A stretch of 24,759 nucleotides of DNA from a virus. A program made the translations under genes and the position numbers. The DNA is taken from positions 1 to 24,759 of the IMG/VR virus record IMGVR_UViG_3300017963_006700, one strand, 5' to 3'. The notes under the pieces are model-generated. The model worked only from the letters and a program-made list of their open reading frames with translations. It was not told where the DNA came from and made no database searches. Shown piece by piece: positions 3,122 through 24,759 of this stretch (positions are counted from its first letter, which is position 1; each line of letters opens with the position of its first letter).

Positions 3122-3194
3122 TGGGGGAGGTTGGACTCGAACCAACGACCTCCAGGTTATGGGCCTGGCGGGCTACCAACTGCCCTACTCCCCA
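3122..3194 (-). tRNA. tRNA-Met (CAT), with initiator-like features
   Basis: A complete 73-base cloverleaf without encoded CCA. The acceptor pairs over six positions but has a T1-C72 mismatch. The D-arm is GGGC/GCCC with loop AGTTGGTA, the anticodon stem is CCAGG/CCTGG, the variable loop is AGGTC, the T-arm is GTTGG-TTCGAGT-CCAAC, and the discriminator is A. The anticodon loop CCCATAA gives CAT, but position 33 is C instead of the near-invariant T. An unpaired 1-72 and a purine11-pyrimidine24 (G11-C24) pair are hallmarks of initiator tRNAs. The anticodon stem has only two of the three usual G-C pairs. A CAT anticodon could also be tRNA-Ile2 if modified to lysidine. Confidence 0.85.
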
Positions 3195-5385: not shown

Positions 5386-5410
5386 GATTTTTGCTCCTCG
5401 AATGTCGTCA

Positions 5411-5438
5411 ATTATCCACACTTGCCCATATATGTCAA
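5411..5438 (-). promoter_or_regulatory. Sigma70-type promoter for the HTH gene
   Basis: In minus sense a perfect -35 TTGACA (5438-5433) is followed after 16 bases by GATAAT (5416-5411). It lies about 26 bases upstream of the HTH start codon and close to its GAGGAG ribosome binding site. Confidence 0.65.
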
Positions 5439-5458
5439 TAAGTCCCTGCATTTTGTTC

Positions 5459-5473
5459 ACAAACATAGTTTGT
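5459..5473. promoter_or_regulatory. Operator-like palindrome ACAAACATAGTTTGT
   Basis: A perfect 6-bp inverted repeat around ATA lies about 20 bases upstream of the -35 of the minus-strand promoter, in the divergent regulatory region. The size and placement suit a dimeric HTH regulator site. Binding is inferred. Confidence 0.45.
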
Positions 5474-5500
5474 AAGTCTTTGCACCATAACGATTTACAA

Positions 5501-5517
5501 CCCAAAAATTTTTTGGG
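5501..5517. promoter_or_regulatory. Perfect palindrome CCCAAAAATTTTTTGGG
   Basis: Eight bases on each side of a central T are perfectly complementary, lying six bases upstream of the predicted plus-strand -35. It could be an operator or a bent A-tract element. It resembles a bidirectional terminator core, but no gene ends here, so an operator role is preferred. Confidence 0.45.
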
Positions 5518-5522
5518 GGTGG

Positions 5523-5550
5523 TTGCCTCTAGTTGAAAAGAGTCTAAAAT
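5523..5550 (+). promoter_or_regulatory. Candidate plus-strand promoter
   Basis: TTGCCT (four of six matches to -35) and TAAAAT (five of six to -10) are separated by 16 bases. Transcription would begin shortly before the ribosome binding site of the small gene at 5575. Confidence 0.4.
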
Positions 5551-5574
5551 TGTGGAGAAATGTTGAGGGGCAAA

Positions 5575-5844
5575 ATGCCTGTAACCAAGAATGGACAATA
5601 TGACGCGTCGGATATTCGGATGATTTCCACCCGAATGAGATCTCTTTGCCAACAAATCGAGGGGATCGCGGACGAAATGGCTGGCCGAGATGTGGTGCTA
5701 TCGATAGCAAGCGACTCTTCGAAGAATACGGCCCTGGAACGGTTTGGACGGTGGGTGGCTGCCGTTGAAAAATCGTGGACTGAATGGGTGACGAAGAACG
5801 CCAAGCAGGATGGGTCCGATTCTGGGTCCGATTCAGAAGGATAG
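5575..5844 (+). CDS. Small acidic hypothetical protein (89 aa)
   Basis: The start MPVTKNGQYDASD at 5575 is chosen because GAGGGG lies just upstream. An ATG at 5560 has no usable spacing to a ribosome binding site. The body is probably helical (RMISTRMRSLCQQIEGIADEM, then ALERFGRWVAAVEKSWTEWV), and the end is a short Gly-Ser-Asp repeat. The DNA for that tail contains two copies of TGGGTCCGATT, the motif that recurs on the other side of the attP core, so the 3' end may double as integrase-arm DNA. No family is recognised. Its divergent position to the HTH gene suggests a lysogeny-control or integration accessory role. Confidence 0.55.
   Translation: MPVTKNGQYDASDIRMISTRMRSLCQQIEGIADEMAGRDVVLSIASDSSKNTALERFGRWVAAVEKSWTEWVTKNAKQDGSDSGSDSEG
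5811..5833 (+). repeat. Two TGGGTCCGATT repeats (left arm-type sites)
   Basis: The 11-mer occurs at 5811-5821 and 5823-5833, twelve bases apart, in the same orientation as the copies to the right of the tRNA-like core. They lie inside the end of the small gene. Integrase arm-site function is inferred from the flanking arrangement. Confidence 0.5.
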
Positions 5845-5971
5845 GGGCCGTTTTCCTGTGGTGGTGAATGGTGATCCGTGGAGAACAGTAGGGTTATGAA
5901 ATAGGCCGGTGTTTACCTAAGTCCTTTTCTGCGAATGACTTCGGCAAATGCCCCCACCTTCGATTGGTGTC

Positions 5972-6015
5972 CTACGGAACCGAAGGTTACACGTTCGAAT
6001 CGTGTGGGGTGTACC
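5972..6015 (+). other. attP core: 3' half of a tRNA-Arg-like gene
   Basis: From the anticodon loop onward the sequence reads as a tRNA: loop CTACGGA (anticodon ACG), stem strand ACCGA, variable AGGTT, T-arm ACACG-TTCGAAT-CGTGT, acceptor strand GGGGTGT, discriminator A and CC. Bases upstream do not pair with the anticodon stem, so the tRNA identity begins at the anticodon loop. Tyrosine integrases often cross over there, and their phages carry the 3' half to restore the host gene. It lies about 110 bases upstream of the integrase start. The 127 bases between 5845 and 5971 show no gene. Confidence 0.7.
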
Positions 6016-6067
6016 TTGCAAGTCGTTGGAATGAAAGGATTTAGACAACTTCGGCCCATTATCATCT

Positions 6068-6120
6068 TGGGTCCGATTTTTGGGCTTTTGGGTCCGAATG
6101 TCGGCCGGAAAGGTCCGAAG
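6068..6120 (+). repeat. Three GGTCCGA repeats at 21-bp spacing (right arm-type sites)
   Basis: TGGGTCCGATT at 6068, TGGGTCCGAAT at 6089 and a weaker AAGGTCCGAAG at 6110 start exactly 21 bp apart, two helical turns, so they present the same DNA face. With the two copies left of the core they bracket the tRNA-like segment, as arm-type integrase sites do. Confidence 0.55.
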
Positions 6121-6124
6121 TGTC

Positions 6125-7240
6125 ATGTCGTTTCCCAAATACCGGCGCCGGGCAGATCGAGATTGGGCATTCGTCGAACATCATGGGCGGAGAATACGTC
6201 TTCCTGGCTCGTACGGCTCCGTAGAGAGCCGACAAGCGTATGCGAAATTCATTGCGGCGATCGCGCGGGAGCCGGCTCAGACGCCGCTTGAGGGCCCTGA
6301 TTCGACAATTACGGACTTGTGCCAACGGTTCCTGGATCACGCTTTGTTGTACTACCAACCTCGACCTGGCCGACCTGCAACGGAGTATGAGCATTTCCGG
6401 ATAATCGCCAAGGTTCTTTTGTTTTACTGTCCAGACCTTGAGATTGGCGATTTTGGGCCGAGAGCCCTGAAGGAGGTTCGACAATTGATGATTACCGGCC
6501 GGTGGACGTGTCCACCAAGACCGTGGGCCCGAACCACGATCAATCGTCAAATTGGCAGATTGAAGCGAATGCTGCGCTGGGGCGTGGCCGAAGAACTTGT
6601 TCCGCCGACAGTCCTCCAAGCCTGTGAAGCCGTTGCTCCTCTAAGAAAGGGTCGCAGTGAGGCGGGGGAATCTCCACCCATTCAGCCGGTTGATTTGGCA
6701 CATGTTCGCGCTGTTTTGCCGTACGTGTCGTCGGTCATCGCAGCAATGATTCGGCTTCAAATGGCTACCGGCATGCGCAGCCAAAATGTTTGTGGAATCA
6801 CGCCGGGTCAAGTCGATCGCTCTGAAGAGGTGTGGGTCTACAAGCCGATTGTTCACAAGACTGATTATGCCAATCGACAATTGATAGTGTTTTTAGGAAG
6901 CCGTGCCCAAGAGGCTCTTCGACCCTTCTTGTTGCGATCCGATGACGCCCATTGCTTTTCTCCACAAGAGTCTGCCGGGCATGGTCGAGATCACTACGAC
7001 ACAACAAGTTATCGTCAAGCGGTGCGGTATGGGATCGCCAAGGCAAACCGATATTTGGGTGAAGCAATTCCCTTTTGGACTCCGCATCAGTTGCGCCACA
7101 CAAAGGCAACGGAGATTCGACGAGAGTTTGGGGTCGAGGCGGCTCAGGTTTTTCTAGGGCATTGCTCTGCTGATGTTACGCAAGTGTATGCACAACGCGA
7201 CTTGTTGTTGGCTCGACGGATTGCACAGCAGATGGCATGA
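6125..7240 (+). CDS. int: Tyrosine-type integrase (planctomycete-like)
   Basis: A site-specific recombinase of 371 residues if started at MSFPKYRRR (6125); starts at 6080 or 6098 would run through the arm-type repeats and are less likely. Counting from 6125, the catalytic residues are Arg218 (TGMRSQN), Lys245 (IVHKTDY), the HQLRH motif near 321-325, His346 (FLGHC) and nucleophile Tyr355 (QVYAQRD). The N-terminal domain (KYRRRADRDWAFVEHHGRRIRL) and the core-binding SAM-like domain are present. The overall pattern, including TEIRREFGVEAAQVFLGHCSADVTQVYAQRD, strongly resembles integrases I associate with planctomycetes. It sits next to its probable attP, supporting integration into a tRNA-Arg gene. 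Confidence 0.93.
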   Translation: MSFPKYRRRADRDWAFVEHHGRRIRLPGSYGSVESRQAYAKFIAAIAREPAQTPLEGPDSTITDLCQRFLDHALLYYQPRPGRPATEYEHFRIIAKVLLFYCPDLEIGDFGPRALKEVRQLMITGRWTCPPRPWARTTINRQIGRLKRMLRWGVAEELVPPTVLQACEAVAPLRKGRSEAGESPPIQPVDLAHVRAVLPYVSSVIAAMIRLQMATGMRSQNVCGITPGQVDRSEEVWVYKPIVHKTDYANRQLIVFLGSRAQEALRPFLLRSDDAHCFSPQESAGHGRDHYDTTSYRQAVRYGIAKANRYLGEAIPFWTPHQLRHTKATEIRREFGVEAAQVFLGHCSADVTQVYAQRDLLLARRIAQQMA

Positions 7241-7380
7241 GGGTCTAACGCATATTCAACAATCTTCGCATGAGGTCGCGTAAGATGAACTGCGTTGAGA
7301 TATGCTTTAGCTTCATTTAGCGAAACAGTGATTGCCAAAAGGGTGTTGCCGTCGACAATCAAGTGAATGGCTTGCGACAC
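7144..7380 (-). CDS. Possible small protein convergent with integrase
   Basis: A GTG-started frame of 78 residues. Its first ~50 residues (SQAIHLIVDGNTLLAITVSL, then NEAKAYLNAVHL and HAKIVEYALD) read like a compact beta-alpha-beta protein. The last third overlaps the integrase coding end by 97 bases on the other strand and looks like shadow sequence. No good ribosome binding site is visible. Apart from this frame, 7241-7500 holds only AT-rich sequence and the leader of the small gene at 7501. Confidence 0.3.
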   Translation of the reverse strand: MSQAIHLIVDGNTLLAITVSLNEAKAYLNAVHLTRPHAKIVEYALDPHAICCAIRRANNKSRCAYTCVTSAEQCPRKT

Positions 7381-7500
7381 GATGTTATCCAGTAAATGAG
7401 ATCATTCAAAATGCATAATTGATAGTTTACCACTGGCTAATTTGTGATGCAATGAGGAACTTCTTTTTTTGGTGGGGGAAAGGTTAAGGGAGGTAGTCTT

Positions 7501-7605
7501 GTGGTCGACTATCAGGAAAAAACAAAGTTGGTGGGGTGGGTAATCCTTGCGGCCGTGGCAGCTTTTACCTTATGGTGTTTATTGCAGCCGACGCCTTGGC
7601 GATGA
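7501..7605 (+). CDS. Tiny single-span membrane protein (34 aa)
   Basis: GTG start with a very strong GGGAGG ribosome binding site seven bases upstream. The product begins MVDYQEKTK and then has a continuous hydrophobic segment (LVGWVILAAVAAFTLWCLL), ending QPTPWR. It is a bitopic miniprotein with a charged N-terminus, encoded on the integrase strand and convergent with the sulfotransferase gene. The role is unknown; a lysogenic-conversion or lysis miniprotein is possible. Confidence 0.5.
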   Translation: MVDYQEKTKLVGWVILAAVAAFTLWCLLQPTPWR

Positions 7606-7621
7606 AGTGGGGAGTGACCAC

Positions 7622-8389
7622 TCAAAGGTTGTACCCGTAGTGGCACAAGACAGGTCCAAGATGTTTGTTGAATGCGACCTGTTCTGAAGTGTCGATGGAT
7701 CGCCATTTGTGATTGGCGGATTTGAGAAGTTCGACGCCAAGTTTCTTGGTTGGCAGTTCGGCAAAGCGGCAAATTTCAGACAAGACGATTTCGGGCGAAG
7801 CGACCAGTCGTTCGTACTTGAGATGCAGGACTGGATGCAGAGCCGAAGAAGCCATGATTGAGTGCATCAAGAGTTTCCATTGCAGCCCGGCAAGAACATA
7901 GAAAGATCGATCTGATTCTTCCCAGATCTGTTGATCTTCCGGCGATAGTTGTCCCCATCGCCACTGAGTTGGTCCCTGCCAACCGTGCCACCATGGCTGT
8001 TGCATCAGCGACCATGCAACGGCTCGACCATCTCGCATCAAGTGAATGAATCGTGCATCCGGAAAGATCCGACGAACAAACTCCAGTCGGGGCCAACCGG
8101 TATACTTTGTGAGAAATCGGGTTCGGTTGGCTTGTTCGCAGAAATGCGCAAACGATTGTTGGATTTCCATGCGATTTTGTTCGGGTACCGCATCGATGCC
8201 TCGAAGATCACGACACGGTCGCGAAAAGCAATGGAACCCTGCTTTTGTCCAAAGGTCATACGGTTCGGGCAAGGGGGTGTGGCCAATGCAAGGCCATGCA
8301 AGATCCGGGTGGTTTGCCAGTAGCCGAAACAGCAATGTTGTTCCGCTGCGACCGGTGCCGATGATGAACAGGGGTTTTTCAGGCAGCAT
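7622..8389 (-). CDS. Sulfotransferase (PAPS-dependent)
   Basis: A 255-residue protein that would transfer sulfate from PAPS to a hydroxyl of a glycan or other acceptor. The 5'-phosphosulfate loop is GTGRSGTT at residues 11-18 in the usual N-terminal strand-loop-helix. The 3'-phosphate motif is FIHLMRDGRAVAWS, with Arg119 and Ser127 in the expected places. Length matches the family. It is the last gene of the glycan cassette, overlapping the GT4 gene upstream by 11 bases. The acceptor is likely the glycan built by the neighbouring enzymes (inference). Confidence 0.85.
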   Translation of the reverse strand: MLPEKPLFIIGTGRSGTTLLFRLLANHPDLAWPCIGHTPLPEPYDLWTKAGFHCFSRPCRDLRGIDAVPEQNRMEIQQSFAHFCEQANRTRFLTKYTGWPRLEFVRRIFPDARFIHLMRDGRAVAWSLMQQPWWHGWQGPTQWRWGQLSPEDQQIWEESDRSFYVLAGLQWKLLMHSIMASSALHPVLHLKYERLVASPEIVLSEICRFAELPTKKLGVELLKSANHKWRSIDTSEQVAFNKHLGPVLCHYGYNL

Positions 8390-9341
8390 GAATTTGTCTT
8401 CGTTCGTGGATTAGCCGGCGAAACAAAGCGTAGTAGGATTTGGCAACGAATTGCCAATCCCACACCTGGATGGATTTGAGCATTTCCGTTGCCAGGGAGA
8501 GATAGTTTTCAGTGGCGATGTCGACGGCTTTTTCAATCGCTTCGATTGATCGCTCGACAAACAATCCGTTGACACCATGTTTGATCAATTCCGGCATGTT
8601 GCCGACGGGGGGAGAAAGTATGGTGCAACCGCAACTGGCCGCTTCCAATGCGGGATTCGGCGTGCCCTCACTGTTGCTGGCACACACATAGATTGTGGCC
8701 GAATTGTACCAATCGACCATTTCCTCGGTTGAGTAGAAATGAACGCCAGGTTCTCCTTGGTGCCGACCCTTGGTTGAGTCAACGCGGCGCAGGTCACACT
8801 CGATACCTCGTTTTTCCAATCGCTCTTTCAGGGGCAACATGATTGATCGATAGTTTTTCAAGTCGCGATTCGGTTCCGTGTGAAAGAAGCTGCCGACCCA
8901 AATGACTTTTGGCTTGCGTTGATGCAGAGGGATCTTTACGCGAAATGCGTCTTGGTCGACACCGTTGGAAATCCATGTCGAGTTTGGGATTGTACCGGCC
9001 AGGTGCCAGGCAGCACGATTGTTGAAAATCACGTGGTCCGAGGCGCCCTTGAAGGTTTCAAAGTGAAATCGCCCTTCACGCGGCCCCTCGTTGATCCAAC
9101 CGGTGTTGCAGCCGGTTACGATGATGCCGTCGTGTCCCAAGTCGGCAAGATGTTGACGGAGGTGGGGGGCATGGAAGTAGCACAATTGGAGATAGATGTC
9201 GTATGGTTCTGTGGGCAGGTTGGGCTTCCTTCCTTCACCTGTTGCGACATGAAAATCGTTTGGTGCGTGCTTCAACAATCCCATGCAGCGACGGTGGTAT
9301 GCCCACCCAGGTTTATCATATCCGAGCCATGCACGGTGCAT
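8379..9341 (-). CDS. GT4-type glycosyltransferase
   Basis: A 320-residue GT-B fold enzyme. The C-terminal donor domain carries the E-x7-E signature (EGTPNPALE, Glu225 and Glu233), followed by SCGCTILSPPVGNMPELI and the NGLFV strand typical of GT4 enzymes. The N-terminal half (MHRAWLGYDKPGWAYHRRC) begins directly with an acceptor-domain strand and is shorter than in many GT4 proteins. An AAAGGA ribosome binding site overlaps the end of the methyltransferase gene before it. It would transfer a sugar from a nucleotide-sugar donor. It shares a WYNS...E-x7-E stretch with the enzyme at 11323-12264, suggesting duplication. Confidence 0.85.
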   Translation of the reverse strand: MHRAWLGYDKPGWAYHRRCMGLLKHAPNDFHVATGEGRKPNLPTEPYDIYLQLCYFHAPHLRQHLADLGHDGIIVTGCNTGWINEGPREGRFHFETFKGASDHVIFNNRAAWHLAGTIPNSTWISNGVDQDAFRVKIPLHQRKPKVIWVGSFFHTEPNRDLKNYRSIMLPLKERLEKRGIECDLRRVDSTKGRHQGEPGVHFYSTEEMVDWYNSATIYVCASNSEGTPNPALEAASCGCTILSPPVGNMPELIKHGVNGLFVERSIEAIEKAVDIATENYLSLATEMLKSIQVWDWQFVAKSYYALFRRLIHERRQIHAA

Positions 9342-9346
9342 CGTGT

Positions 9347-9964
9347 TTAGTCCTTTACTTGGTAGATGAAAATGGGGTAAAACTCGGGGTATCGTTTCCG
9401 TTCATTGCATGGGAAAAAGAGTGTGTCGCGTAGCGGCCACCCTCGGCGCTCGATCATCTCTTGGAATTCTTGGCCGAGAGACATCTTGTGAAAGTCCCAG
9501 GCAAAGAACGCGCCACGGTTGGCCGACATGGAAACGCTATCCAGTATTTCTTGATAACGATTGATGCCGGGATGCTTGGCGCGTTCGATCTTGACGGGAT
9601 ATTCGTACGGCCAATCGGATTGCAGCCAATTCATGGCAGTGATCCAGTCGAAACCGATTTCTGGAAACGGATTCCCAAGATTGAAGTTGGCTTCGATGAT
9701 TGTTTTCAATCCAGTACGCCTGCGTGCCAGTTCGGCATGGTCCGGCTCGATGTCGCAGCCATACAGGTGATCCGCCGGGAAGCCGTGGTCATTATGCAAG
9801 AGTCGCAACAGTTCGCCGCTGCCGCAACCTGTGACCAGGACACGGCCAGGACGTTGCGACATTCGTGCTGCCAGGTCTGAGAGTGTCGGCGTGTGTCGGG
9901 CGCCGTCTTTCAACCAAGGACAGATCTCTAAGTCACGGTACAAATAATCTGAATCGTTCGACAT
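9347..9964 (-). CDS. Class I SAM-dependent methyltransferase
   Basis: A 205-residue protein with motif I RVLVTGCGSGELLRLLH (residues ~41-57) and an acidic residue after strand 2 in YGCDIEP (Asp71). The C-terminal sheet includes FFAWDFHKM and FYPIFIYQV. It is a typical small-molecule or sugar methyltransferase fold. The start overlaps the deacetylase end by 32 bases. Within the cassette it probably methylates a sugar hydroxyl or amine. No substrate-specific motif is visible. Confidence 0.75.
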   Translation of the reverse strand: MSNDSDYLYRDLEICPWLKDGARHTPTLSDLAARMSQRPGRVLVTGCGSGELLRLLHNDHGFPADHLYGCDIEPDHAELARRRTGLKTIIEANFNLGNPFPEIGFDWITAMNWLQSDWPYEYPVKIERAKHPGINRYQEILDSVSMSANRGAFFAWDFHKMSLGQEFQEMIERRGWPLRDTLFFPCNERKRYPEFYPIFIYQVKD

Positions 9965-10562
9965 CGGTACAAAACTCCGGGTAATTCTTTTCGGCGTCCC
10001 AGACTTTTGTCTGGGTACACCCGTGGCGGTAATAGTCCAGCAGCTTCATTTTCTTGTCGCGGTCGAACTGGTAGATGATGTCACCCTCTGGGTCGATCGC
10101 ATGTACGTTCGTCGGGCTTGTCTCCATCGTGAGATCATGGCAGAGCTTATGTTGATGGCGTGCTGTTGCCCAACCGTCGGCGTATTTCTCTGCCGTGTAA
10201 TCACCATCTTTGCCGTGTGTGAAGACAAGCGTTGGCCGTATGGCTTTCATCAGCGTTTCCAGCCAATGTAATCCCTTCGCGTACAAGGAATGGTTGGCTT
10301 CAAGCATTTGCGGCAATCTCGCTCGGTAGGCAAACGCCCGAACCGCCAGGCAAACGCGGGCAAAGGCGCCCCAACGACAAGCAATTCTTGCCGGTTCACG
10401 TTCTGCTTGCTCTGGTGTCTTGGGTGAATTGCAGAATTTGGCGCCGGTCAGAACCGCAATGTGAATCTCGATCCGGTCACAAGCCAACGACAGCATGGTT
10501 CCACCAAAGAACAAGGCTTCGTCGTCGGGGTGAGCAACGACAAACAGGGCTTTTCCGTTCAT
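9933..10562 (-). CDS. PIG-L/LmbE-family N-deacetylase
   Basis: A 209-residue protein starting MNGKALFVVAHPDDEALFFGG. The zinc-binding AHPDDE motif is at residues 10-15, and later TLVFTHGKDGDYTAEK and WATARHQHK supply the second metal-site histidines. The family removes acetyl groups from N-acetylglucosamine-containing lipids and sugars. The start overlaps the methyltransferase stop as ATGA. In this cassette it would expose an amino group on an aminosugar, which a methyltransferase or sulfotransferase could then use. Length is normal for the family. Confidence 0.85.
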   Translation of the reverse strand: MNGKALFVVAHPDDEALFFGGTMLSLACDRIEIHIAVLTGAKFCNSPKTPEQAEREPARIACRWGAFARVCLAVRAFAYRARLPQMLEANHSLYAKGLHWLETLMKAIRPTLVFTHGKDGDYTAEKYADGWATARHQHKLCHDLTMETSPTNVHAIDPEGDIIYQFDRDKKMKLLDYYRHGCTQTKVWDAEKNYPEFCTDVERFRLFVP

Positions 10563-11326
10563 GATGTTTCCTTTTGCGTAACCACCAGGAATCTCCCGAC
10601 CTGATGCTGGACGTGAAGAATCTTCACACCAAGCAATTGGCAAAGGCGATTGATGGATTTTTCCGTAACAAAGATGGTTTCGGTCTGTCGAATTTCGATG
10701 GGGTCGCCAAGGGATTCGGCCGAGAAAAAGAGTATGCCGTTGGTATTGAGCGTTCTTAAAAGCGATCGCAGAACGTCATGGGGTGATTTGACGTGCTCAA
10801 ACGCCTCGGAAAAGAAGATGGCGTCGGCATGTACGTCTGGCACCTGTGGCAGGTCGACGACATACCCTTCGTGCCCTTGGCTTTTGACATGCTCGATGTA
10901 GGTTTTGCAAATATCCAGGCCGATGCGATGCTTCCACTGGGGGTATTGCGATGCAACGTCGAGGAGCGTTCCCATGCCGCAAGCGGCGTCGATGATCGTT
11001 TGTCCGTCTGGGAGGTATGGGGCAGCGAAGTCGTAACGGGCCTGGCTTCCGTGGGGAAGATCCTTTTTGACTCGCTTCGCCGCATGTTCGTCGGAGTGTC
11101 CCTGGAACGAGTCGATTGGATTGCGATAGACTGCTTCACATTGCAAACACCGATCGTAGGAATACAGATCCGGTGCGTTCAGCGTAGGGACGTGGTGAAT
11201 TGCAATGCCGTCTAACACGGCTGATTCCTGCAACCGCAATACTGGAATGCGCCAATAGCGTTCAATGATTGACGTGGACCGACAAACGGGGCAACAAGTG
11301 CGGTCGAAGTCGCCAGCGATTTTCAT
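10559..11326 (-). CDS. Methyltransferase with N-terminal zinc-binding domain
   Basis: A 255-residue protein starting MKIAGDFDRTCCPVC; the start overlaps the GT4 stop by four bases (ATGA), so longer upstream frames are rejected. CPVC at 12-15 and CLQC at 60-63 form a split zinc site in the N-terminal domain. The SAM-binding fold follows, with TIIDAACGMGTLLDVA (~110-125), IGLDI and a FFSEAFEHV motif IV. The layout resembles sugar C- or O-methyltransferases that carry an N-terminal zinc module. It probably acts on the glycan of the cassette. Confidence 0.75.
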   Translation of the reverse strand: MKIAGDFDRTCCPVCRSTSIIERYWRIPVLRLQESAVLDGIAIHHVPTLNAPDLYSYDRCLQCEAVYRNPIDSFQGHSDEHAAKRVKKDLPHGSQARYDFAAPYLPDGQTIIDAACGMGTLLDVASQYPQWKHRIGLDICKTYIEHVKSQGHEGYVVDLPQVPDVHADAIFFSEAFEHVKSPHDVLRSLLRTLNTNGILFFSAESLGDPIEIRQTETIFVTEKSINRLCQLLGVKILHVQHQVGRFLVVTQKETS

Positions 11327-12264
11327 GACTCTCTTCCTGTGCTGTAACGGGCACAAAATGTTTCGTCGACCAGTTGGTAGTAATTGCCGGCCAGTCGTGC
11401 CCAACTCCATTCCGCAATTTCTTTTTTGATGTCGGGCAACCAGTACAGATAATTGCGATTGGCCTTGCAGATCGCGGTCACAAAGGAATCCACTGTCGGC
11501 GACACAATCAATCCGTTTTTGTTTGGCTTGATTAGCTCCGGAACAATGCCGACGGCCGTAGAGACAATGCCGCATCCACATGCCATTGCCTCCAACACGG
11601 TATTCGGCAACCCTTCCATGACACTGGTACAAATCAAGAGTCGACCGGAGTTGTACCACTTGACCATTTCCTCGCGCGAGCGAAGAGATTCGCCGTTGGG
11701 GTCCACTACGATGACTTCCATTTCAATTCCCAACGGTCGGAGTTTTTCTGCAACCTCCATCGCCAAGGTGTGCCGCTTCACGTCGGCTCGTTCTTGTCCT
11801 TGATTGATGATTCCGGCGCACCACAAGGCTTTTGATGGTCGGTCAATCGGTGGAACGGTAATACAAAATTCATTCAAGTCAACCCCGCTAGGTGCTAACC
11901 GCAGCTTGGGTCGACCTCCCCGAGCCAAAGCGAAACACTGACGAGATTCGACGAGAACTAGATCCGAGCATTCATGTAACATGTTGAGCTTTTCGACATA
12001 GCGCGGGTAGCACGTGTTGTAGCGGCTCAACAGAACGGCATTGGGCGCCCGTCGGCAGCACGTTTCGTACAGTTCTTCATGAACATTGCTGCCAAGGTTG
12101 ATGATCACATCGGCATCGTCGTAATTCCATTTCCGAGTGTGGCCGGTCCACTGGTCAATGGCGACATCCCAATGGGGAGGGGCGTATTTGGCAATTGCAT
12201 CGGCATGGTTTTTGGCGTTCCAGCCAAGATGTTCGACCAACAGGTACACTTTAAGTAATTGCAT
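11323..12264 (-). CDS. GT4-type glycosyltransferase
   Basis: A 313-residue enzyme. The second of two adjacent ATGs (12262-12264) has the better spacing to GGAG. The E-x7-E motif EGLPNTVLE is at 217-225, followed by ACGCGIVSTAVGIVPELI and NGLIV; LRLAPSGVDLNEF in the middle is the usual GT4 hinge element. The first 14 bases overlap the end of the sulfotransferase gene. It is a close structural relative of the enzyme at 8379-9341 but divergent in the N-terminal acceptor domain, so the two probably add different residues. Confidence 0.85.
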   Translation of the reverse strand: MQLLKVYLLVEHLGWNAKNHADAIAKYAPPHWDVAIDQWTGHTRKWNYDDADVIINLGSNVHEELYETCCRRAPNAVLLSRYNTCYPRYVEKLNMLHECSDLVLVESRQCFALARGGRPKLRLAPSGVDLNEFCITVPPIDRPSKALWCAGIINQGQERADVKRHTLAMEVAEKLRPLGIEMEVIVVDPNGESLRSREEMVKWYNSGRLLICTSVMEGLPNTVLEAMACGCGIVSTAVGIVPELIKPNKNGLIVSPTVDSFVTAICKANRNYLYWLPDIKKEIAEWSWARLAGNYYQLVDETFCARYSTGRES

Positions 12265-12871
12265 CATAGAACTCCACAATCTTGTGTTCGAGTTTTAGGA
12301 GTTGTTGTTCTTGATCTTCTCGCCAAATTGCGTGTCCCACGACGGATCCTCCCGCGTTTTGTGGTGGCAAGTTGTCAAGAACGGTTGGATCGTATGGATG
12401 TCCGATCGCATCGAGAACACAACAAAAATCATGCTTTAGGTTTTCGGTGCGGCCGATGAAGTTGATATTCGGTTTCTCCAATGGACCGGTGTATTGTTCG
12501 AACATTTTTGTCAGAAAGCCAGGAGCATGATCAATTACTCGTTGGATAAACTCACCGAAGTCAACATGTCGCAATCGTTGGAGTGGATAGGTCGGGTGCC
12601 AATGCCAACGATCCCAATTGTGTGGTCGCCCGGCAGAATAAGTCCACCATGAAGCGTACCAATGGAGTGGGTGTCGAATGAATGCAAAAGTAAACTTCGC
12701 ATCGGGACAACTGTCCTTGGTGCAATGCCGATCAGCACACGTGTCGTCTTGTGGGGATGAAATAAAGCGAGTCGTACATTGGGTTCGAAACAAGGCTTCT
12801 TCTACCCAAAGCCCACCGGTCTTTGCGATGTGAAGAAAGGATGCGTCGTAATCGGGTAGATAAATTGCCAT
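12251..12871 (-). CDS. Sulfotransferase, HIPKTGG-type
   Basis: A 206-residue protein starting MAIYLPDYDASFLHIAKTGG, two bases after the methyltransferase stop. HIAKTGG (14-20) is the phosphosulfate-binding motif of the membrane-carbohydrate sulfotransferase type (HIPKTGG in relatives). FAFIRHPLHWYASWW (Arg66, Ser74) is the 3'-phosphate site. It is a different subfamily from the one at 7622-8389, so the cassette probably makes two distinct sulfations. A cluster of cysteines (QCTTRF, TCADRHCTKDSC) is unusual and could bind metal or form disulfides. Confidence 0.8.
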   Translation of the reverse strand: MAIYLPDYDASFLHIAKTGGLWVEEALFRTQCTTRFISSPQDDTCADRHCTKDSCPDAKFTFAFIRHPLHWYASWWTYSAGRPHNWDRWHWHPTYPLQRLRHVDFGEFIQRVIDHAPGFLTKMFEQYTGPLEKPNINFIGRTENLKHDFCCVLDAIGHPYDPTVLDNLPPQNAGGSVVGHAIWREDQEQQLLKLEHKIVEFYDAIT

Positions 12872-12872
12872 A

Positions 12873-13475
12873 CTACTTTTTTTGGAGAATGCACATTGCC
12901 GATAACCAACCGATTTGTTGCTCAATTACTTCCAGTCCGTATTTGTTTACGGCCGGTTCGATCATTTCCCATGTGACCTCGCACCAATCCCAAATGTTGT
13001 GGAGCATGACGTGTTTGTAAAAGTCGCGACTTGGTGCATAGTCATGTACGGCAATCAAGTCACCTGATTTTAGGTGTTCGCTGAAGACAGCCAGTTCTTT
13101 TGGTTTGTCTCCGCCGTCGCAGAAAACGAAAGTGCGCCCGGGTTGCCGAATCATTAAGGCAATATCCTTTTGGAAATCCCAACAGGATCCATGCCAGCAA
13201 TCCACGTCGAGTTCTTGCAAGAGTTGGTTGTTGCGTGGTTTGTTGTCGAACGTAGTAAATCGGGCGCCGGTAGTCAGGGCGTAGATGTGAAACAAGACGG
13301 ACAATCCGCCGTTGCCTGTTCCGATCTCAATGATCTGCTTGAAAGGGCCGTATTCTTCAAAGATCATATTGAATGCTGCCAAGGCGTTTTGGTTTTGCGA
13401 CATGCAAAGTCCAAAGAACTTCAATCGCTCCGGTCCTCGTCCTGGCACATCAGTTTCGATCGGTGTCATTCGCAT
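12873..13475 (-). CDS. SAM-dependent methyltransferase (CmcI-like)
   Basis: A 200-residue protein with motif I IIEIGTGNGGLSVLFH (from residue 48), Asp77 after strand 2, then VFCDGGDKP and DLIAVHDYAP, a pattern typical of the Methyltransf_24/cephalosporin-hydroxylase-like group that includes rhamnosyl O-methyltransferases. Its start overlaps the previous gene by 26 bases; Met3 is an alternative. It probably O-methylates a sugar of the phage-encoded glycan. That substrate is inferred from the neighbours. Confidence 0.75.
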   Translation of the reverse strand: MRMTPIETDVPGRGPERLKFFGLCMSQNQNALAAFNMIFEEYGPFKQIIEIGTGNGGLSVLFHIYALTTGARFTTFDNKPRNNQLLQELDVDCWHGSCWDFQKDIALMIRQPGRTFVFCDGGDKPKELAVFSEHLKSGDLIAVHDYAPSRDFYKHVMLHNIWDWCEVTWEMIEPAVNKYGLEVIEQQIGWLSAMCILQKK

Positions 13476-14124
13476 TTTTTTGTCCTACAAAAATGATGGT
13501 GCCGCATTGCCGACAGACTAGCTGTCGGCCGACCAACAACTCGTCGTACCCTCGTCCGCAGTGTTCGCAAACAATCGGTCCAGAACGCTTGGCGACATCG
13601 CGAATGTGTTCGTTCACGTCCCAGCCAAACAGTTCTGTAACATTGATGATCCGCACCCCTTGCGGTGGGTTTCGTACTGTGCGGCACAAGGGACCGTGTT
13701 CGCCAGGCGTGCCCTCTTGTACCATGCGATCGATCCATGCCTGGACAAATTCCATTGCCCTTGCTGTTCGATTGAGAACAATAATGCCACATGTTACATC
13801 CATGTTGCCCGTGGCATCGTGAACCCCAACGTCGAAGAGGTTGAGGTTGGGTAGGGGGTCAACGCGATTCAACCGACAGTCAACATCTACCCATGCGATC
13901 GGTCGAGCATGGGGGGCGTCCGTATCACACCAAATTTTGCCGGCTAGACAGTCGCGGAGAAAGTAAGGTTTGTGTCGCACATTGCCATACCAGTCGCCAG
14001 GTGGATCAATCAATCGAATGCTATGCTCCAGGTTGAGTCGTTGACAATCGGCGATCAGTTTTTCTCGGGCAATTGCATAGAACGTGGGGGTTCGCGTTGC
14101 ATAACTGACGATGAGGGGACGCAT
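13450..14124 (-). CDS. DxD glycosyltransferase with C-terminal zinc ribbon
   Basis: A 224-residue protein starting MRPLIVSYATRTPTFY behind GGAGAAG; an in-frame Met nine codons earlier lies inside the previous gene and is rejected. WVDVDC (Asp80-x-Asp82) is a metal-binding DxD motif of GT-A fold enzymes, with GNMDVTCGIIVLN and WIDRM in the positions seen in nucleotide-diphospho-sugar transferases. The last 40 residues add a zinc ribbon (C186-x2-C189 and C204-x2-C207), an unusual fusion that may recruit the enzyme to a protein partner. It adds one sugar, possibly initiating on protein or extending the chain. Confidence 0.7.
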   Translation of the reverse strand: MRPLIVSYATRTPTFYAIAREKLIADCQRLNLEHSIRLIDPPGDWYGNVRHKPYFLRDCLAGKIWCDTDAPHARPIAWVDVDCRLNRVDPLPNLNLFDVGVHDATGNMDVTCGIIVLNRTARAMEFVQAWIDRMVQEGTPGEHGPLCRTVRNPPQGVRIINVTELFGWDVNEHIRDVAKRSGPIVCEHCGRGYDELLVGRQLVCRQCGTIIFVGQKNANDTDRN

Positions 14125-14137
14125 TGTGCTTCTCCGA

Positions 14138-15148
14138 TCACAGGCTGTCAAACAGTCGTTTCCAGTTGGCCCAAATCATATCCGGATTGGCGAGATCTTC
14201 TTCAAGGCGTTCTCTGGCTCGGCCCGTCAGTTCCATCCGTTGGTATTCGTTTTCAGCCAAGGTCTTGCAGGCATCGACAACAGCCGTTTTGTCTTGGCAG
14301 AGAAACCCTGTCTTTCCGTGAACGATCATTTCTTGCCAACCTCCAGCATCGTCGACAACAATGGGCACCCCAACCGACATTGCTTCAAGACCGGTTCGCG
14401 GCCAATTTTCAGGTTTATGTGTGAGTTGCACCATAGCGTGAAGCGATTGAAGGAATGTTTGTGGCGATTCGGCGCCTTCCGGCAAGATTTCGACCCAGCT
14501 TGGTACTGGCCCACGAATCGAGAATGGTTGAAATCCCATGACCCGAGCGGTAACAGGAGCATCGATTGTTTCGCGAATGGCCGTGTAGATTTCCCATGTA
14601 TCTGTTGCAAATTTCCAGGGGTGAGATCGGGAGAGTCGCCCCAAAACAAATTTGCCTCCCTGTCGATGTGGATTGGGGAGATATGGAAACTCCGAACAAT
14701 CAAAGGCACCTCGAATCAAATGACATTGACTGCGGCGTACACCTCGTTTTTTGTATTCGGGCCATAATCCGTTTAGTTGAAAGTGGCTTTGGAAAAGGTA
14801 TTTTGTCATCAAGGGGTGCTTGCGATAGTAGTCAGCCTCGTATCCGGAGAGATACGAGCAACACGGTCCCCATACGATCTTGGCGCCTTCGAAAACTTCC
14901 GGGTGCGCAGTTACTTCCGGGTTGCATAGGGCGACAACAATTTCCCCCCTCAAATCGCCGGGGGAGATCATAGTTGTTTTGCAGCCAATCATCTCAAGTC
15001 GGCATTTCCATTCGAGATCAGGTTTCCATGTGGGGAAAACCGTTACTGGCACCTGTTTTCTGCGCCACAACTTGATCGTGTGCCACAACTCTGACGGCGC
15101 CCCACCGATCCGGTTTGGATAACCGGCTACATAGATGGTGTTGTGCAT
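14138..15148 (-). CDS. GT4-type glycosyltransferase
   Basis: A 336-residue GT-B enzyme and the first gene of the cassette, ten bases after the structural gene that ends at 15158. The N-terminal loop RIGGAPSELWH (13-23) matches the GGA-type acceptor/donor loop of GT4 enzymes. ENWPRTGLEAMSVGVPIVV provides the E-x7-E motif (Glu247, Glu255), and HGKTGFL follows. GLEAMSVGVPIVVDDAGG is typical. The absence of any promoter-sized gap shows that it is transcribed with the virion genes. Confidence 0.85.
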   Translation of the reverse strand: MHNTIYVAGYPNRIGGAPSELWHTIKLWRRKQVPVTVFPTWKPDLEWKCRLEMIGCKTTMISPGDLRGEIVVALCNPEVTAHPEVFEGAKIVWGPCCSYLSGYEADYYRKHPLMTKYLFQSHFQLNGLWPEYKKRGVRRSQCHLIRGAFDCSEFPYLPNPHRQGGKFVLGRLSRSHPWKFATDTWEIYTAIRETIDAPVTARVMGFQPFSIRGPVPSWVEILPEGAESPQTFLQSLHAMVQLTHKPENWPRTGLEAMSVGVPIVVDDAGGWQEMIVHGKTGFLCQDKTAVVDACKTLAENEYQRMELTGRARERLEEDLANPDMIWANWKRLFDSL

Positions 15149-15157
15149 GATTGATCA

Positions 15158-15562
15158 CTACGGAGTTGCGTCGCGCAGCACCCCTATGTGGAGTGTGGTT
15201 GCTACTCCTCCAATGTTGGTGACATAGAATTTCGTCACATCGGCCGTGATTGGATTTGTGTAATAGCCGTTTGTTTCATCGGCTTCCGTCCAGACCAATC
15301 CCAAGTCTTCGTCGATGTTGAGAACGAAGTCGCGCCCGCCACTGGTGGCCGCGTTTGCCTCCAGCATCAGATCCGAATCCGTTGAGTAAATGAGGATCGC
15401 CTTCAACTGCGACTTGTCGATTGCAATGTCGACTTGTTTGTCGGAATCAGTGGCCCCGACTGATACCTCGACATATTCGAATGCATCAGCGGTGATTTGT
15501 TTGGCGGCGGTTTGCACCCAACCGTCGCATGACAGTTTTCTGGTTAGTGTTGCAGTAGGCAT
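15158..15562 (-). CDS. Putative virion structural protein (134 aa)
   Basis: The second ATG (15560-15562, MPTATLTRKLS) is chosen because AGGAG sits six bases upstream; the first ATG touches the ribosome binding site. The protein is all-beta in appearance (FEYVEVSVGAT, QLKAILIYS, DLMLEANAATSGG, VTKFYVTNIGGVATTLHIGVL) and ends in short strands like tail-fibre or head-decoration jelly-rolls. It is the last virion-type gene before the glycan cassette and a candidate decorated protein. No family is recognised. Confidence 0.55.
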   Translation of the reverse strand: MPTATLTRKLSCDGWVQTAAKQITADAFEYVEVSVGATDSDKQVDIAIDKSQLKAILIYSTDSDLMLEANAATSGGRDFVLNIDEDLGLVWTEADETNGYYTNPITADVTKFYVTNIGGVATTLHIGVLRDATP

Positions 15563-15571
15563 CAGCATCTC

Positions 15572-15934
15572 CTATGAGCTAGTTTTTTGGAGGGAAATCC
15601 ATCTCTCACAAGCATGAGTTGGTCGATCTCGTCGTTGGATTAGTGCGACAAACCAACGACAGGGGGTATTGCCGTGTGGGTTGAATTTAGGACAATCTGT
15701 TTCACAAAACATTTTGCAGGTTCGACAACAAGCCAGACGTTTGAGAATCGTTTCTTCGGACAAACCGGTCATTTCCGCTTTGACGGCTTGTGCGATTCTC
15801 CGTTCGAGAGAAAACTCTCGGGAACCTTCTGGACAATTTCGGTGGGGAGGTCGATCGATAACAAAAGGGTATTCCCAGTTGCATTCTTGGCACTGCCAAA
15901 GTCCGTTGTTGTTTTTTTCGAATAGACAATCCAT
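15572..15934 (-). CDS. Cysteine-rich, double zinc-finger-like protein
   Basis: A 120-residue protein with eleven cysteines. The N-terminal part (C15-x2-C18 and C34) is a zinc-ribbon-like module. The C-terminal part (C69, C70, C73, C77, C81, C92, C109; CCRTCKMFC) could bind zinc or an Fe-S cluster. A long charged helix separates the two. It sits among tail genes, four bases from the very cysteine-rich protein upstream. The function is unknown. Confidence 0.6.
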   Translation of the reverse strand: MDCLFEKNNNGLWQCQECNWEYPFVIDRPPHRNCPEGSREFSLERRIAQAVKAEMTGLSEETILKRLACCRTCKMFCETDCPKFNPHGNTPCRWFVALIQRRDRPTHACERWISLQKTSS

Positions 15935-15937
15935 TGA

Positions 15938-16390
15938 TCAAACCGCAGTTGCCAGGCAGGTAGAAGCCGCTGCATTACAGATGCTAAACGGTGTTTGGGT
16001 GTTGTAGGTGACGCTTTGGTTGTTCCATGCCGAACAATCAGGGGTGGCGCCGAATGTTTCCGCGTACGAAAAGTCGAATTGGCATACACCAACGGCCCCG
16101 ACGATCTCTACTCGTAAGGTGAGCCCATCCATGTACGCCGTAATGTCGCATTGTGCGCCGGAGTATTCCCATTGACACCGGCCACTTGCATGTGGTGTGA
16201 GCGTCAATACGAATGTGTCGTTGAAATCCGAACAGCACGGCCAGCCAGTGACGCCGGCAATCGTTATGGACAACTGGTTTGGCGCAGTGCCCGAACATCC
16301 CGTACATCCACAGCAACAGCTTGAGTCCATGGCAATTTTGTTGCTGCCGGAAAAAAGAATCTTGTTGTTGTTGAACTGAATGTTTCCCAT
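15938..16390 (-). CDS. Cysteine-rich putative virion protein
   Basis: A 150-residue protein starting MGNIQFNNNKILFSGSNKIA, placed at the first ATG after the upstream stop. It has thirteen cysteines, five of them in the segment DSSCCCGCTGC (residues 23-33). The rest is beta-strand-rich with alternating Thr/Val/Phe. The N-terminal leader (ILFSGSNKIAMDSSCCC) resembles a recurring motif I recall from planctomycete-associated phage-like regions. It may be a disulfide- or metal-stabilised virion-surface or fibre-tip protein. Function not established. Confidence 0.6.
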   Translation of the reverse strand: MGNIQFNNNKILFSGSNKIAMDSSCCCGCTGCSGTAPNQLSITIAGVTGWPCCSDFNDTFVLTLTPHASGRCQWEYSGAQCDITAYMDGLTLRVEIVGAVGVCQFDFSYAETFGATPDCSAWNNQSVTYNTQTPFSICNAAASTCLATAV

Positions 16391-16397
16391 TGTCTCG

Positions 16398-17423
16398 TTA
16401 TGGACAGGCATCCCCGGTGTGAATGTCGGTCCAGTTGCTTTCGTCTTCTGTGATGTGAGCCCAGACTTTTCGTGTTTTCTTTTGCAGCTTCAGGTTGGTC
16501 GTGTCGACTTGAAAATTTGTCATGACTTCTTGTTCTCGTAACTTGCCCATAAATGCGTAGAATTCTTCTTCTTGATCGTCCCAATATGCGGCCACCCAAT
16601 CATTGTCTTTGCCGGCGGTGCAATGTCGATCGTTGGCAAATTCAACGGGTTCATTCCCGTCGGCATCCATCCACAAGGCTTCTTTGGTTGGCAAGACGAC
16701 GAGGGCCGAGTCGATGCTGATAACCGAATCGGATCCGCTCCAATCGGCATCAGCTTGTCCGATAACCAATTGGGCATGGGGTTGGAGTGAAACAAACTCC
16801 CAGGCATTTCGATCGGGGCAATACTGGATCCAACCTCGGGAACCCAGTACGGGTGGCGTACCATCCTTGTACGCTCGGCCTCGCAAGCCTAAGAAGTCCG
16901 TTGCTTCGACCTCGATGCCTGTGTCAATTTGTAGGCTGCCTTCGAGATACGGCAACAGGTGACACGTTGCCGTACCAAAAGGCTCCAGGGCATCCTTCAG
17001 TTCGATTCGCCACCTGTCCAAAGGTGGGCTGACACACTCCAGCGTTCCTTGAGAATCGGTGACGTAGATTCGCTGGCCTGCGCCATAGGGCATCATTCCG
17101 AAAGATTGGTCGCTGCCATTTTGAAAACCTGCGGGAAGTTCGATTATCTCGGCTTGAGCATTAGTGTTTACGGCCCAAAGTTTGCTTGGGTGTCGAACCA
17201 CCGGTTTCCCTCTAGCAATCCACTGCTTTGTCGTTCCGTCAACGGCAAAACTTGTCGTCAATTCGTAGAGTAGCACCTCCTGTCCTGTTAGCGGGATGAT
17301 GGCGTGTCCGTCTTCGCTGCTGTGCGTACCGACACCGCGCAGCGGTCGTGTGGCAAGTCGCAACAAGTCATTGAGCCACTTGCGGATCGTGCGAAGATTT
17401 GTACCAGGTGGAAGGGGGTCCAT
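16398..17423 (-). CDS. Putative tail/appendage protein (341 aa)
   Basis: The start is the ATG at 17421-17423 (MDPLPPGTNLRTI); a GTG one codon earlier is possible. After a short basic helical N-terminus (RKWLNDLLRLATRP) the protein is beta-rich with many Trp, Gly and Asp residues, e.g. TKQWIARGKPVVRHPSKLW, RIYVTDSQGTLECVSPPLDRW and LDFLGLRG-like strands. It follows the tail tube region and probably forms a baseplate or fibre component. No family is recognised. Confidence 0.5.
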   Translation of the reverse strand: MDPLPPGTNLRTIRKWLNDLLRLATRPLRGVGTHSSEDGHAIIPLTGQEVLLYELTTSFAVDGTTKQWIARGKPVVRHPSKLWAVNTNAQAEIIELPAGFQNGSDQSFGMMPYGAGQRIYVTDSQGTLECVSPPLDRWRIELKDALEPFGTATCHLLPYLEGSLQIDTGIEVEATDFLGLRGRAYKDGTPPVLGSRGWIQYCPDRNAWEFVSLQPHAQLVIGQADADWSGSDSVISIDSALVVLPTKEALWMDADGNEPVEFANDRHCTAGKDNDWVAAYWDDQEEEFYAFMGKLREQEVMTNFQVDTTNLKLQKKTRKVWAHITEDESNWTDIHTGDACP

Positions 17424-17428
17424 CACAC

Positions 17429-18220
17429 TTACTTGGAATAACAGGTATTGAGGTCTGCCGTCGGGTACTCAAATTGTTCCCCGTTTTCGTTGTAGACGTA
17501 TTCAAATTGTCCGGTCGCTTTGCGAAGGAATTTGTTCCAGTACTGCGGATCGAATTCAGCGGTGTGAATGATTCGGTAACGTGTGTATCCTTCGGTTGTG
17601 AATTGTCGTGAAATGCGAGGCTTTTTATACATCAGCGTTCCAGCCGGAAAATTGATGCCCAGAACATCTGCATGAACAAGAGTGTTGTTTGTGTGGCCAA
17701 TACAGGAGACACATCCTGAAGGAATGCTGATTACACCTTTTTCTTCGCGTATGTAGAGTGCCTTGGGTGTGGCAATCTGGACGGTTGATTGTTCGTCCGG
17801 TTTCAGGTATGTGGGATCGTCAACCTGTCCGGAGTTCCACATGAGATTGCGATGTCCCAGGCTTTGCCACAGATCAACGCCGTCGAATGTTTCACTTACC
17901 ACCCCCGTAGAATTGAGTGCGGCGACATTGGAATTGTATTCCAAGGTCAGTACGGCATCGTTGTAGCTTAGGTAGTGTTCGTTTTGAGCGCTGGATTGCG
18001 AGTTTTCCATTGGGCCAGCCTTCACCTTCCAAATGTAGGCTGCCCAGTTGGAGTCATATTCTGCCGGCCACCGATTGTTGCCTGAGTCCCAAATTTGATC
18101 GAGGAATGTTCCTACGTCGCTCCACGCCATGTGGACCTGGCGAATTCCTTTCATTCCGTCTTCGGTTACAAACCGAAGGGGCGTTCCTTGACAATCCCAA
18201 TGGTCAACAGATGGGGCCAT
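17429..18220 (-). CDS. Putative tail protein (263 aa)
   Basis: The ATG shares one base with the stop of the coiled-coil gene (TAATG). The protein contains a mid-region GCVSCIGHTNNTLVH and a C-terminal section reading RQFTTEGYTRYRIIHTAEFDPQYW followed by NENGEQFEYPTADL. I associate that ending with uncharacterised structural proteins in planctomycete phage-like loci. It is mostly beta-strand. The position between tail tube and terminal appendage genes suggests a tail-tip or baseplate role. Confidence 0.5.
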   Translation of the reverse strand: MAPSVDHWDCQGTPLRFVTEDGMKGIRQVHMAWSDVGTFLDQIWDSGNNRWPAEYDSNWAAYIWKVKAGPMENSQSSAQNEHYLSYNDAVLTLEYNSNVAALNSTGVVSETFDGVDLWQSLGHRNLMWNSGQVDDPTYLKPDEQSTVQIATPKALYIREEKGVISIPSGCVSCIGHTNNTLVHADVLGINFPAGTLMYKKPRISRQFTTEGYTRYRIIHTAEFDPQYWNKFLRKATGQFEYVYNENGEQFEYPTADLNTCYSK

Positions 18221-18612
18221 TACGGCATCTCCAGAAGTTCATCGAGCTTATTGATTATTTGTTGTGCTTGATTTACCATCGCTGTCTTGAGTTCCACCAG
18301 GACTTCACGTAGCGAGTTGATTTGATTCGGCAATTCCTGCAAGTTTTGTGATGCTTGCAGTGGAGGTGTACCGCTGATTTGCGGTTCCGCTTGTTTGAGT
18401 TGCGGCAAACCGGTTCCGATGTGTTGTTCGCCAAACATGGGTGCGGGGACTTGAGCTTTCAAGTCTGGTAGACTGGAGAGCACATCGTCGTGTTCGACGT
18501 TTGCCTCGGCTGCTTGTTGCGCAACGCGACTTGGAGCCAAAGGGTCTTGATCTTCCTTTGGCAACATGGAGGAGGGCAGTTGTTTGGTCAGTTCTTCCCA
18601 GTCTGGTGGCAT
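18220..18612 (-). CDS. Small coiled-coil virion-region protein (130 aa)
   Basis: The start MPPDWEELTKQLPSSML at 18610-18612 lies four bases after the tail tube stop; an upstream in-frame ATG would overlap that gene by 150 bases and is rejected. The N-terminal two thirds are Pro/Gln/Ala-rich and probably disordered. The C-terminal ~45 residues (LPNQINSLREVLVELKTAMV onward) have a clear heptad pattern of hydrophobic residues, a coiled coil. It may be a tail assembly chaperone, minor tail protein or scaffold, but no family is recognised. Confidence 0.5.
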   Translation of the reverse strand: MPPDWEELTKQLPSSMLPKEDQDPLAPSRVAQQAAEANVEHDDVLSSLPDLKAQVPAPMFGEQHIGTGLPQLKQAEPQISGTPPLQASQNLQELPNQINSLREVLVELKTAMVNQAQQIINKLDELLEMP

Positions 18613-18616
18613 GGTT

Positions 18617-19453
18617 TTAATCCCAGAATATGGTGCCGTCGGGTTGAATGATGTGTCCTTGAGATCCGTCTTTCCAGCCGGTCCACCGTCCCCGGAAACT
18701 CGCCGCCCAGAAGCGGGCTTGTGTGTCGCCTTCACTGTGAATGACCATTTTGCTCTGGACATCGAATAGTCGGAACCAATTGATGTCCCAGTATTCCGGC
18801 GTCGAGTTCACGTTGATGTGAACCGCGTACACACCGTTGTTGACGGGCAGATCGGCCGGGTTGGAAAAAAGAACGAGACCCTGCAAGAAGGCTCGAACAT
18901 TTCCTGCCTTGCGATAGATGTATCCGTTGGTGTTGGCCGATACGTAACCGTCTTCCATTCCAGGCCCCCTGGCAGACGGGCATTCAATGGTCAGTTCCAT
19001 GTGCTGCATCTCGGCAACACTGCTGCCGTCCAGGGTCATTGTCAGTCCACGTGCAATGTCCGGATCGGGTGATCCACTGTCGGTAGCGGTGTAAGGGCCT
19101 TTGCCAAGGGCACTACTGCCTTGCGCAAAATCGACCACGTGATAAATGAATCGTCCGCGATTGACCGGAAAGACAATGTGAGCACGGGACGTATAGGCTG
19201 ATCCCTGGTAGCCTTTTCCGTTGCGGCTGGCTCCGGTGAACGTCCAAAGATTGCCTGGCATCCGATAGGGGGTATGCCCCTTGGCGGTGTAGCGTCCCTT
19301 CCAGTCTACGTTGCCGGCCTTGTTCAATTCGCCGCCGTCGGTTGACGCGCAAACCATGACGGGAAGATCGGCAATCTCTCGAATCAACCATTCCTCAATG
19401 CACCGCTGGCCGTCGATGGCACCATTGACACCGGAAATCACGTCGTCGGACAT
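18617..19453 (-). CDS. Probable major tail tube protein
   Basis: A 278-residue protein opening with ISGVNGAIDGQRCIEEWLIREIADL and then NKAGNVDWKGRYTAKGHTP, MPGNLWTFTGA and GRFIYHVVDFAQGSSALG. This order of a short N-terminal strand, a helix, a Gly-rich strand pair and a long beta-hairpin matches phage tail tube (major tail) proteins of the lambda gpV/XkdM-like fold. It lies after head-tail joining genes, where such a protein is expected. No tape measure gene follows within the window, so the assignment is tentative. Confidence 0.5.
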   Translation of the reverse strand: MSDDVISGVNGAIDGQRCIEEWLIREIADLPVMVCASTDGGELNKAGNVDWKGRYTAKGHTPYRMPGNLWTFTGASRNGKGYQGSAYTSRAHIVFPVNRGRFIYHVVDFAQGSSALGKGPYTATDSGSPDPDIARGLTMTLDGSSVAEMQHMELTIECPSARGPGMEDGYVSANTNGYIYRKAGNVRAFLQGLVLFSNPADLPVNNGVYAVHINVNSTPEYWDINWFRLFDVQSKMVIHSEGDTQARFWAASFRGRWTGWKDGSQGHIIQPDGTIFWD

Positions 19454-19462
19454 GTGAACACC

Positions 19463-20361: not shown

Positions 20362-20372
20362 CTTTGCATCCT

Positions 20373-24758: not shown

Positions 24759-24759
24759 C

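Follow-up and report, generated by a model that had tools for sequence, protein, structure and literature searches.

In GtrABC O-antigen seroconversion, temperate phages carry glycosyltransferases near the integrase and attachment site (att), and the system needs both a membrane flippase and membrane transferases. Decoration of the Nod-factor or heparan type draws on a sulfotransferase (NoeE), an N-deacetylase and methyltransferases. In the Cluster O mycobacteriophage Corndog, genes gp35-38, an O-methyltransferase and glycosyltransferases lying between portal and protease, were found expressed in infected cells, and a role in modifying the capsid was suggested for them (passages on these genes in PMC4351075). 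The Corndog capsid and tail tube are reported to be glycosylated (Freeman et al. 2023, cited in PMC11600133 and PMC12363180), and virion glycosylation has been described for Che8, Corndog and Myrna (cited in PMC12363180 and PMC11600133). Here we describe a ten-gene glycan cassette at positions 7622-15148 of the virus record IMGVR_UViG_3300017963_006700. The window, which is the whole stretch analysed, is a single linear IMG/VR record (24,759 bases) from an incomplete genome. With somewhat better than even confidence, we favour the explanation that the cassette is an exchangeable late-operon module which glycosylates the virion proteins of a temperate tailed phage, with hosts probably among the Planctomycetota.

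The locus resembles Corndog gp35-38 in having methyltransferase and tandem glycosyltransferase genes inside a virion operon. Compared by description only, the two differ in size (four genes versus ten) and in the Mycobacterium host of Corndog, and the passages on gp35-38 in PMC4351075 report no sulfotransferase or de-N-acetylase. With GtrABC the cassette shares glycosyltransferases situated by the integrase and att region, but it contains no membrane flippase or membrane-bound glucosyltransferase. Its reaction types, sugar transfer, de-N-acetylation, sulfation and methylation, are those of Nod-factor and heparan-type decoration, whereas a PIG-L enzyme takes the place of the NodB of the Nod-factor pathway, and neither the NodA acyltransferase nor the NodC chitooligosaccharide synthase is among the Pfam and NCBIfam matches of the cassette. 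A preliminary description of this stretch knew of no phage system with such a combination. This holds for sulfation plus de-N-acetylation, which has no described phage counterpart in the open-access literature and collections searched, but not for the general kind, virion-operon glycosylation being already known from Corndog, Che8 and Myrna.

Composition and layout of the cassette

All ten genes lie on the minus strand, where the preliminary description had placed them, and encode three GT4 glycosyltransferases, one GT-A-like glycosyltransferase, three S-adenosylmethionine (SAM) methyltransferases, a PIG-L de-N-acetylase and two sulfotransferases dependent on 3'-phosphoadenosine-5'-phosphosulfate (PAPS). 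The first gene starts 9 bases past the end of the preceding operon gene and, in order of transcription, the ten genes follow gaps of 9, 13, -26, 1, -17, -4, -4, -32, 5 and -11 bases, several of the gene starts differing from those of the longest open reading frame. Promoter- or terminator-like sites in the cassette region showed no excess over shuffled sequence. The glycosyltransferase and methyltransferase genes are thus co-directional and tightly packed within a virion operon, and the same arrangement is seen in three other phage contigs (L123, L124 and L121). By hydropathy, none of the ten proteins has a clear transmembrane segment, a single peak of 1.88 lying inside the catalytic core of GT4b, and no flippase, polymerase or priming transferase is present in the cassette. 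The lack of such proteins argues against an exported polysaccharide and against conversion of the GtrABC type.

The cassette opens with the GT4-family glycosyltransferase GT4a (14138-15148; PF00534, E 1.4e-12), which has orthologs in two uncultivated phages, L123 (IMGVR_UViG_3300037504_000129; 38% identity) and L124 (IMGVR_UViG_3300032731_000382; 40%). It is followed by a putative GT-A-like glycosyltransferase with a C-terminal zinc ribbon (13450-14124), which is without a Pfam or NCBIfam match and carries a DVDC motif; its L123 ortholog (45-47%) keeps this motif and all four zinc-ribbon cysteines. MT1 (12873-13475), a putative class I SAM methyltransferase called from its EIGTGNG motif alone, matched no Pfam or NCBIfam family and has no ortholog in L123. 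For the GT-A-like protein and MT1, AlphaFold models predicted from single sequences (pLDDT 44 and 37, respectively) were too poor for use. ST1 (12251-12871; 42% ortholog in L123) is a weak call as a carbohydrate-type PAPS sulfotransferase, matching phrog_3347, a 'galactose-3-O-sulfotransferase' (E 2e-4), and Pfam Sulfotransfer_2 (PF03567, E 9e-4) at 19.9 bits, under the curated cut-off of 22. Since both PAPS motifs (KTGG and RHPxxxxxS) are present, it probably works like a sulfotransferase in spite of that score.

GT4b (11323-12267; PF13692, E 1e-16; 55% ortholog in L123) is a paralog of GT4c (8379-9341; PF13692, E 1e-14; 51% in L123, 42% in L124, 31% in L121), the two sharing 29% identity (E 1e-36). 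Between them lie two further SAM methyltransferases, MT2 (10559-11326; PF13489, E 7e-14), which is missing from the L123 cassette, and MT3 (9347-9964; PF13649, E 1e-6; 34% in L123), together with the PIG-L family de-N-acetylase (9933-10562; PF02585, E 1.4e-10). The latter scores 42.2 bits against a curated cut-off of 28.2 and has the HxDD zinc motif as AHPDDE, which reads AHYDDE in its 44% ortholog in L123. A role of the GT4 and PIG-L pair in thiol (bacillithiol or mycothiol) synthesis was considered and dropped, as there is no cysteine ligase and the matches fall far below cut-off. The last gene of the operon, ST2 (7622-8389), is a Sulfotransfer_3 enzyme (PF13469, E 1.8e-25; 90.9 bits versus a cut-off of 27) with the 5'-phosphosulfate motif GTGRSGTT (pattern GxxRSGTT), and the 43% ortholog in L123 retains the RDGRAVAWS stretch of ST2. 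All motifs searched for in the cassette proteins were present, bar one self-written sulfotransferase pattern that had no literal match in ST2. ST2 also matches the NoeE model (E 2e-7, far under the model cut-off) and, distantly, protein-tyrosine sulfotransferases; given the latter likeness, it may sulfate tyrosine of virion proteins directly.

Pfam matches, motifs and orthologs therefore bear out the gene identities of the preliminary description, which had a ten-gene glycan cassette following structural genes. Its account of overlaps of a few bases and no promoter-sized gap agrees with the spacing of -32 to +13 bases, and its reading of the genes as assembling and decorating a glycan fits both the enzyme families and the recurrence of the set.

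Recurrence in other phages and searches of host chromosomes

Relatives of the cassette were found by scanning a GT4b and GT4c profile against viral contigs. In L123, eight cassette genes follow one another in tandem, at 34-55% protein identity (45% for the GT-A-like protein), directly past tape-measure and tail genes; the order is that of the window, except that the GT-A gene is displaced and MT1 and MT2 are missing. Its terminase (phrog_38) and protease-capsid protein (phrog_4523) are unlike those of the window phage. L124 is an HK97-type phage (terminase phrog_9, portal phrog_12, capsid phrog_10) in which GT4a and GT4c, the only recognizable cassette orthologs, stand with a methyltransferase and further putative glycosyltransferases, all after the tail genes. 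L123 and L124 thus share with the window phage orthologous tandem cassette genes past the tail genes, whereas their terminase, portal and capsid families differ. In L121, a glycosyltransferase-like gene, a methyltransferase and the GT4c relative come directly after the terminase. Judged from sequence, the recurrence together of eight of ten genes in a divergent phage is not chance. Because the set is kept together at such divergence, crosses structural lineages and stays at the end of the virion genes, the case is strong for a single functional unit bound to the virion programme.

Searches of a phage collection with the portal, GT-A, ST1 and ST2 proteins gave no match, and a tblastn search with GT4c gave one weak match, to an unannotated record. 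In a 232-kb viral contig (L122), a presumed structural gene of 1521 amino acids is followed by six or more tandem glycosyltransferase-like genes (5393-12750).

Host chromosomes were searched in a few hundred sampled genomes with single- or two-sequence queries, for which absence is suggestive and not proof. The intact block was not found in the sampled Planctomycetota chromosomes, where relatives of the sulfotransferases were solitary. None of 284 Planctomycetota genomes held the GT-A-like gene, bar a short match to the zinc ribbon, and the PIG-L query had no match in 119 genomes, which is weak evidence.

A second contig, IMGVR_UViG_3300017971_007513 (L002), matches window positions 6158-24759 at 99.6-99.9%, with three synonymous and one nonsynonymous difference within the cassette, although the two contigs are possibly not fully independent samples. 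An assembly artefact is rejected, as this contig agrees and the divergent phage L123 holds a syntenic cassette; the same two results exclude a host locus joined by assembly error, which the preliminary description had named as the outcome that would overturn it. The contigs, otherwise about 99.9% identical, carry 37 differences at 24238-24534, in one gene of 179 amino acids before the portal (15 nonsynonymous), which suggests recombination or fast change.

Surrounding phage genes and probable host

From high to low coordinates, the window holds a small gene, the portal, two further head genes, small unmatched genes and the cassette; apart from the integrase, its recognizable genes are on the minus strand. 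The portal (22082-23980, minus strand), assigned by homology and position, is 28-32% identical to proteins adjoining the terminase in Singulisphaera sp. GP187, a Planctomycetales metagenome-assembled genome and the IMG/VR phage L009. A head-tail connector-like protein (20373-21563, minus strand) is 28-33% identical to the product of a gene shortly past the portal in L087, L088 and L089. A further portal relative occurs in G372, one more Planctomycetota-drawn genome, and the connector is common to the relatives too. The host is probably a planctomycete, because portal and connector relatives occur in Planctomycetota genomes.

The second contig runs 4.3 kb further upstream of the window. This added part encodes the large terminase subunit (phrog_2, E 1e-21), holds an SSB-like gene and the gene of a DPD-motif protein, and also includes a putative decoration protein along with the C-terminus of a capsid protein, which phrog_9953 matches weakly. 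The term structural genes thus rests on the PHROG terminase, the prophage-conserved portal, the weakly matched capsid C-terminus of the overlapping contig, and position. In the phage collection, the terminase is a distant relative of those of many tailed phages; a scan of genome contigs with the terminase large subunit found no relative. The DPD-motif protein (L002:1215-2006), which lies among the head genes between decoration protein and terminase and matches at most a PHROG of unknown function, may be another (GT-A) glycosyltransferase.

Between the head-connector genes and the cassette lie presumed tail or virion genes, so assigned by position (15158-19453, minus strand). One of them (15572-15934) is Cys-rich and 34% identical to a small Cys-rich gene preceding GT4a in L124. 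Another, close before the cassette (15938-16411), is rich in Cys and Ser/Thr, the Ser/Thr content of 20% being the highest among the operon proteins measured; from this content and its position we would guess it to be a candidate glycan acceptor.

Convergent with the cassette is a tyrosine integrase (6080-7240, plus strand; PF00589, E 6e-13; phrog_1, E 3e-32). Just upstream of it, at 5972-6015 on the plus strand, a tRNA-like 3' end with the T-arm ACACG-TTCGAAT-CGTGT, followed by GGGGTGTACC, was read from the sequence and is probably the attP core. It had no Rfam tRNA match, as expected for half a tRNA, and two patterns drawn from it had no match with three or fewer mismatches, as a host attachment site, in the sampled Planctomycetota. 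Past the integrase lie an excisionase-like gene, tRNA-Met, an exonuclease and a Sak4-like recombination protein. The tRNA-Met(CAT) gene, at 3122-3194 in the early region of the phage, is complete, and the N-terminal part of the Sak4-like frame (927-2192) has three near-identical tandem peptide repeats (PTFQPAMTPQAESHESET-like). In a related phage (L009 and L087), the peptide motif (R)QMAFMP or HLAFMPP is repeated near several frame starts, like a short DNA element recurring before genes.

Possible targets of the glycan and their meaning

What is established directly is the enzyme families with their intact motifs, the continuity of the operon, and a set that is conserved and recurs at the same position in phages whose structural genes are unrelated. 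For the glycan itself we favour attachment to virion proteins, because of the position of the cassette, because it lacks membrane, flippase and polymerase genes, and because Corndog offers a published precedent. The cassette closes the late operon at its 3' end and would be expressed late alongside the virion proteins. Its soluble glycosyltransferases would act in the cytoplasm and assemble an oligosaccharide straight onto a virion protein, perhaps a capsid, decoration or tail protein. PIG-L would then strip N-acetyl groups, the methyltransferases cap hydroxyls and the two PAPS-dependent enzymes add sulfate, in whichever order, leaving the particle coated with a charged, methylated glycan that may serve shielding, stability or adsorption.

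Several points weigh against this. The acceptor protein and the glycan, its chemistry and sugar identities included, are what we infer; the cassette has no sugar-nucleotide biosynthesis genes; the genes of 15158-19453, including those directly before it, have no database match. Relatives that share the portal and terminase (the Singulisphaera prophage, L009 and G372) showed no recognizable cassette in the stretches inspected by eye and by tblastn, and the cassette is therefore accessory. It also ends beside the integrase and putative attP, a common place for lysogenic-conversion genes. The host envelope, which the preliminary description had offered alongside virion proteins as a target, could accordingly be what is remodelled, a surface polysaccharide being decorated from the prophage or late in infection so as to block superinfection or alter adsorption. 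The cassette glycosyltransferases do resemble exopolysaccharide and lipopolysaccharide enzymes, and the L124 cassette ends near genes resembling host chromosome. We nevertheless think this unlikely, given a cassette without membrane proteins, flippase, GtrABC-like set or separate promoter-sized gap that recurs at the ends of virion operons in phages with unrelated structural genes. Position, gene content and Corndog thus speak for the virion of the two proposed targets, both of them inferential.

Improbable to a greater degree is hypermodification of phage DNA bases by the glycosyltransferases and tailoring enzymes as a defence against host nucleases. Hypermodification of DNA is a known ability of virus-encoded glycosyltransferases (Pyle et al. 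2024, as cited in PMC12619734), and a metagenomic study suggests that nucleotide modification involves transferase systems, with sulfotransferases among them (PMC10829341). Yet neither the window nor its extension, in this incomplete genome, has a hydroxymethylase, thymidylate-synthase-like or TET-like gene, and the cassette sits with virion genes, not recombination genes. A host polysaccharide locus, acquired by chance and drifting or mis-assembled, would account for the single sulfotransferase relatives in Planctomycetota chromosomes. We regard it as very improbable and reject the whole cassette as a host locus: those relatives are solitary, the GT-A-like gene is missing from the 284 genomes bar the ribbon match, the two contigs agree, L123 has a syntenic set and the motifs are intact.

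More tentatively, and at somewhat less than an even chance, virion glycosylation may take a specific form: several structurally unrelated phages, probably of Planctomycetota, would have in common an exchangeable cassette and, through it, a virion coat of sulfated, de-N-acetylated, O-methylated and charged oligosaccharide, heparan- or Nod-factor-like in character. If true, virion glycosylation, so far shown for a few mycobacteriophages, would extend to phages from the environment whose hosts are probably Planctomycetota, with far more varied chemistry, sulfation included, and in a module moving between phage lineages. Planctomycetes are known for their metabolism of sulfated polysaccharides, and a sulfated phage coat would therefore suggest a link between the particles and the glycans used by their hosts.

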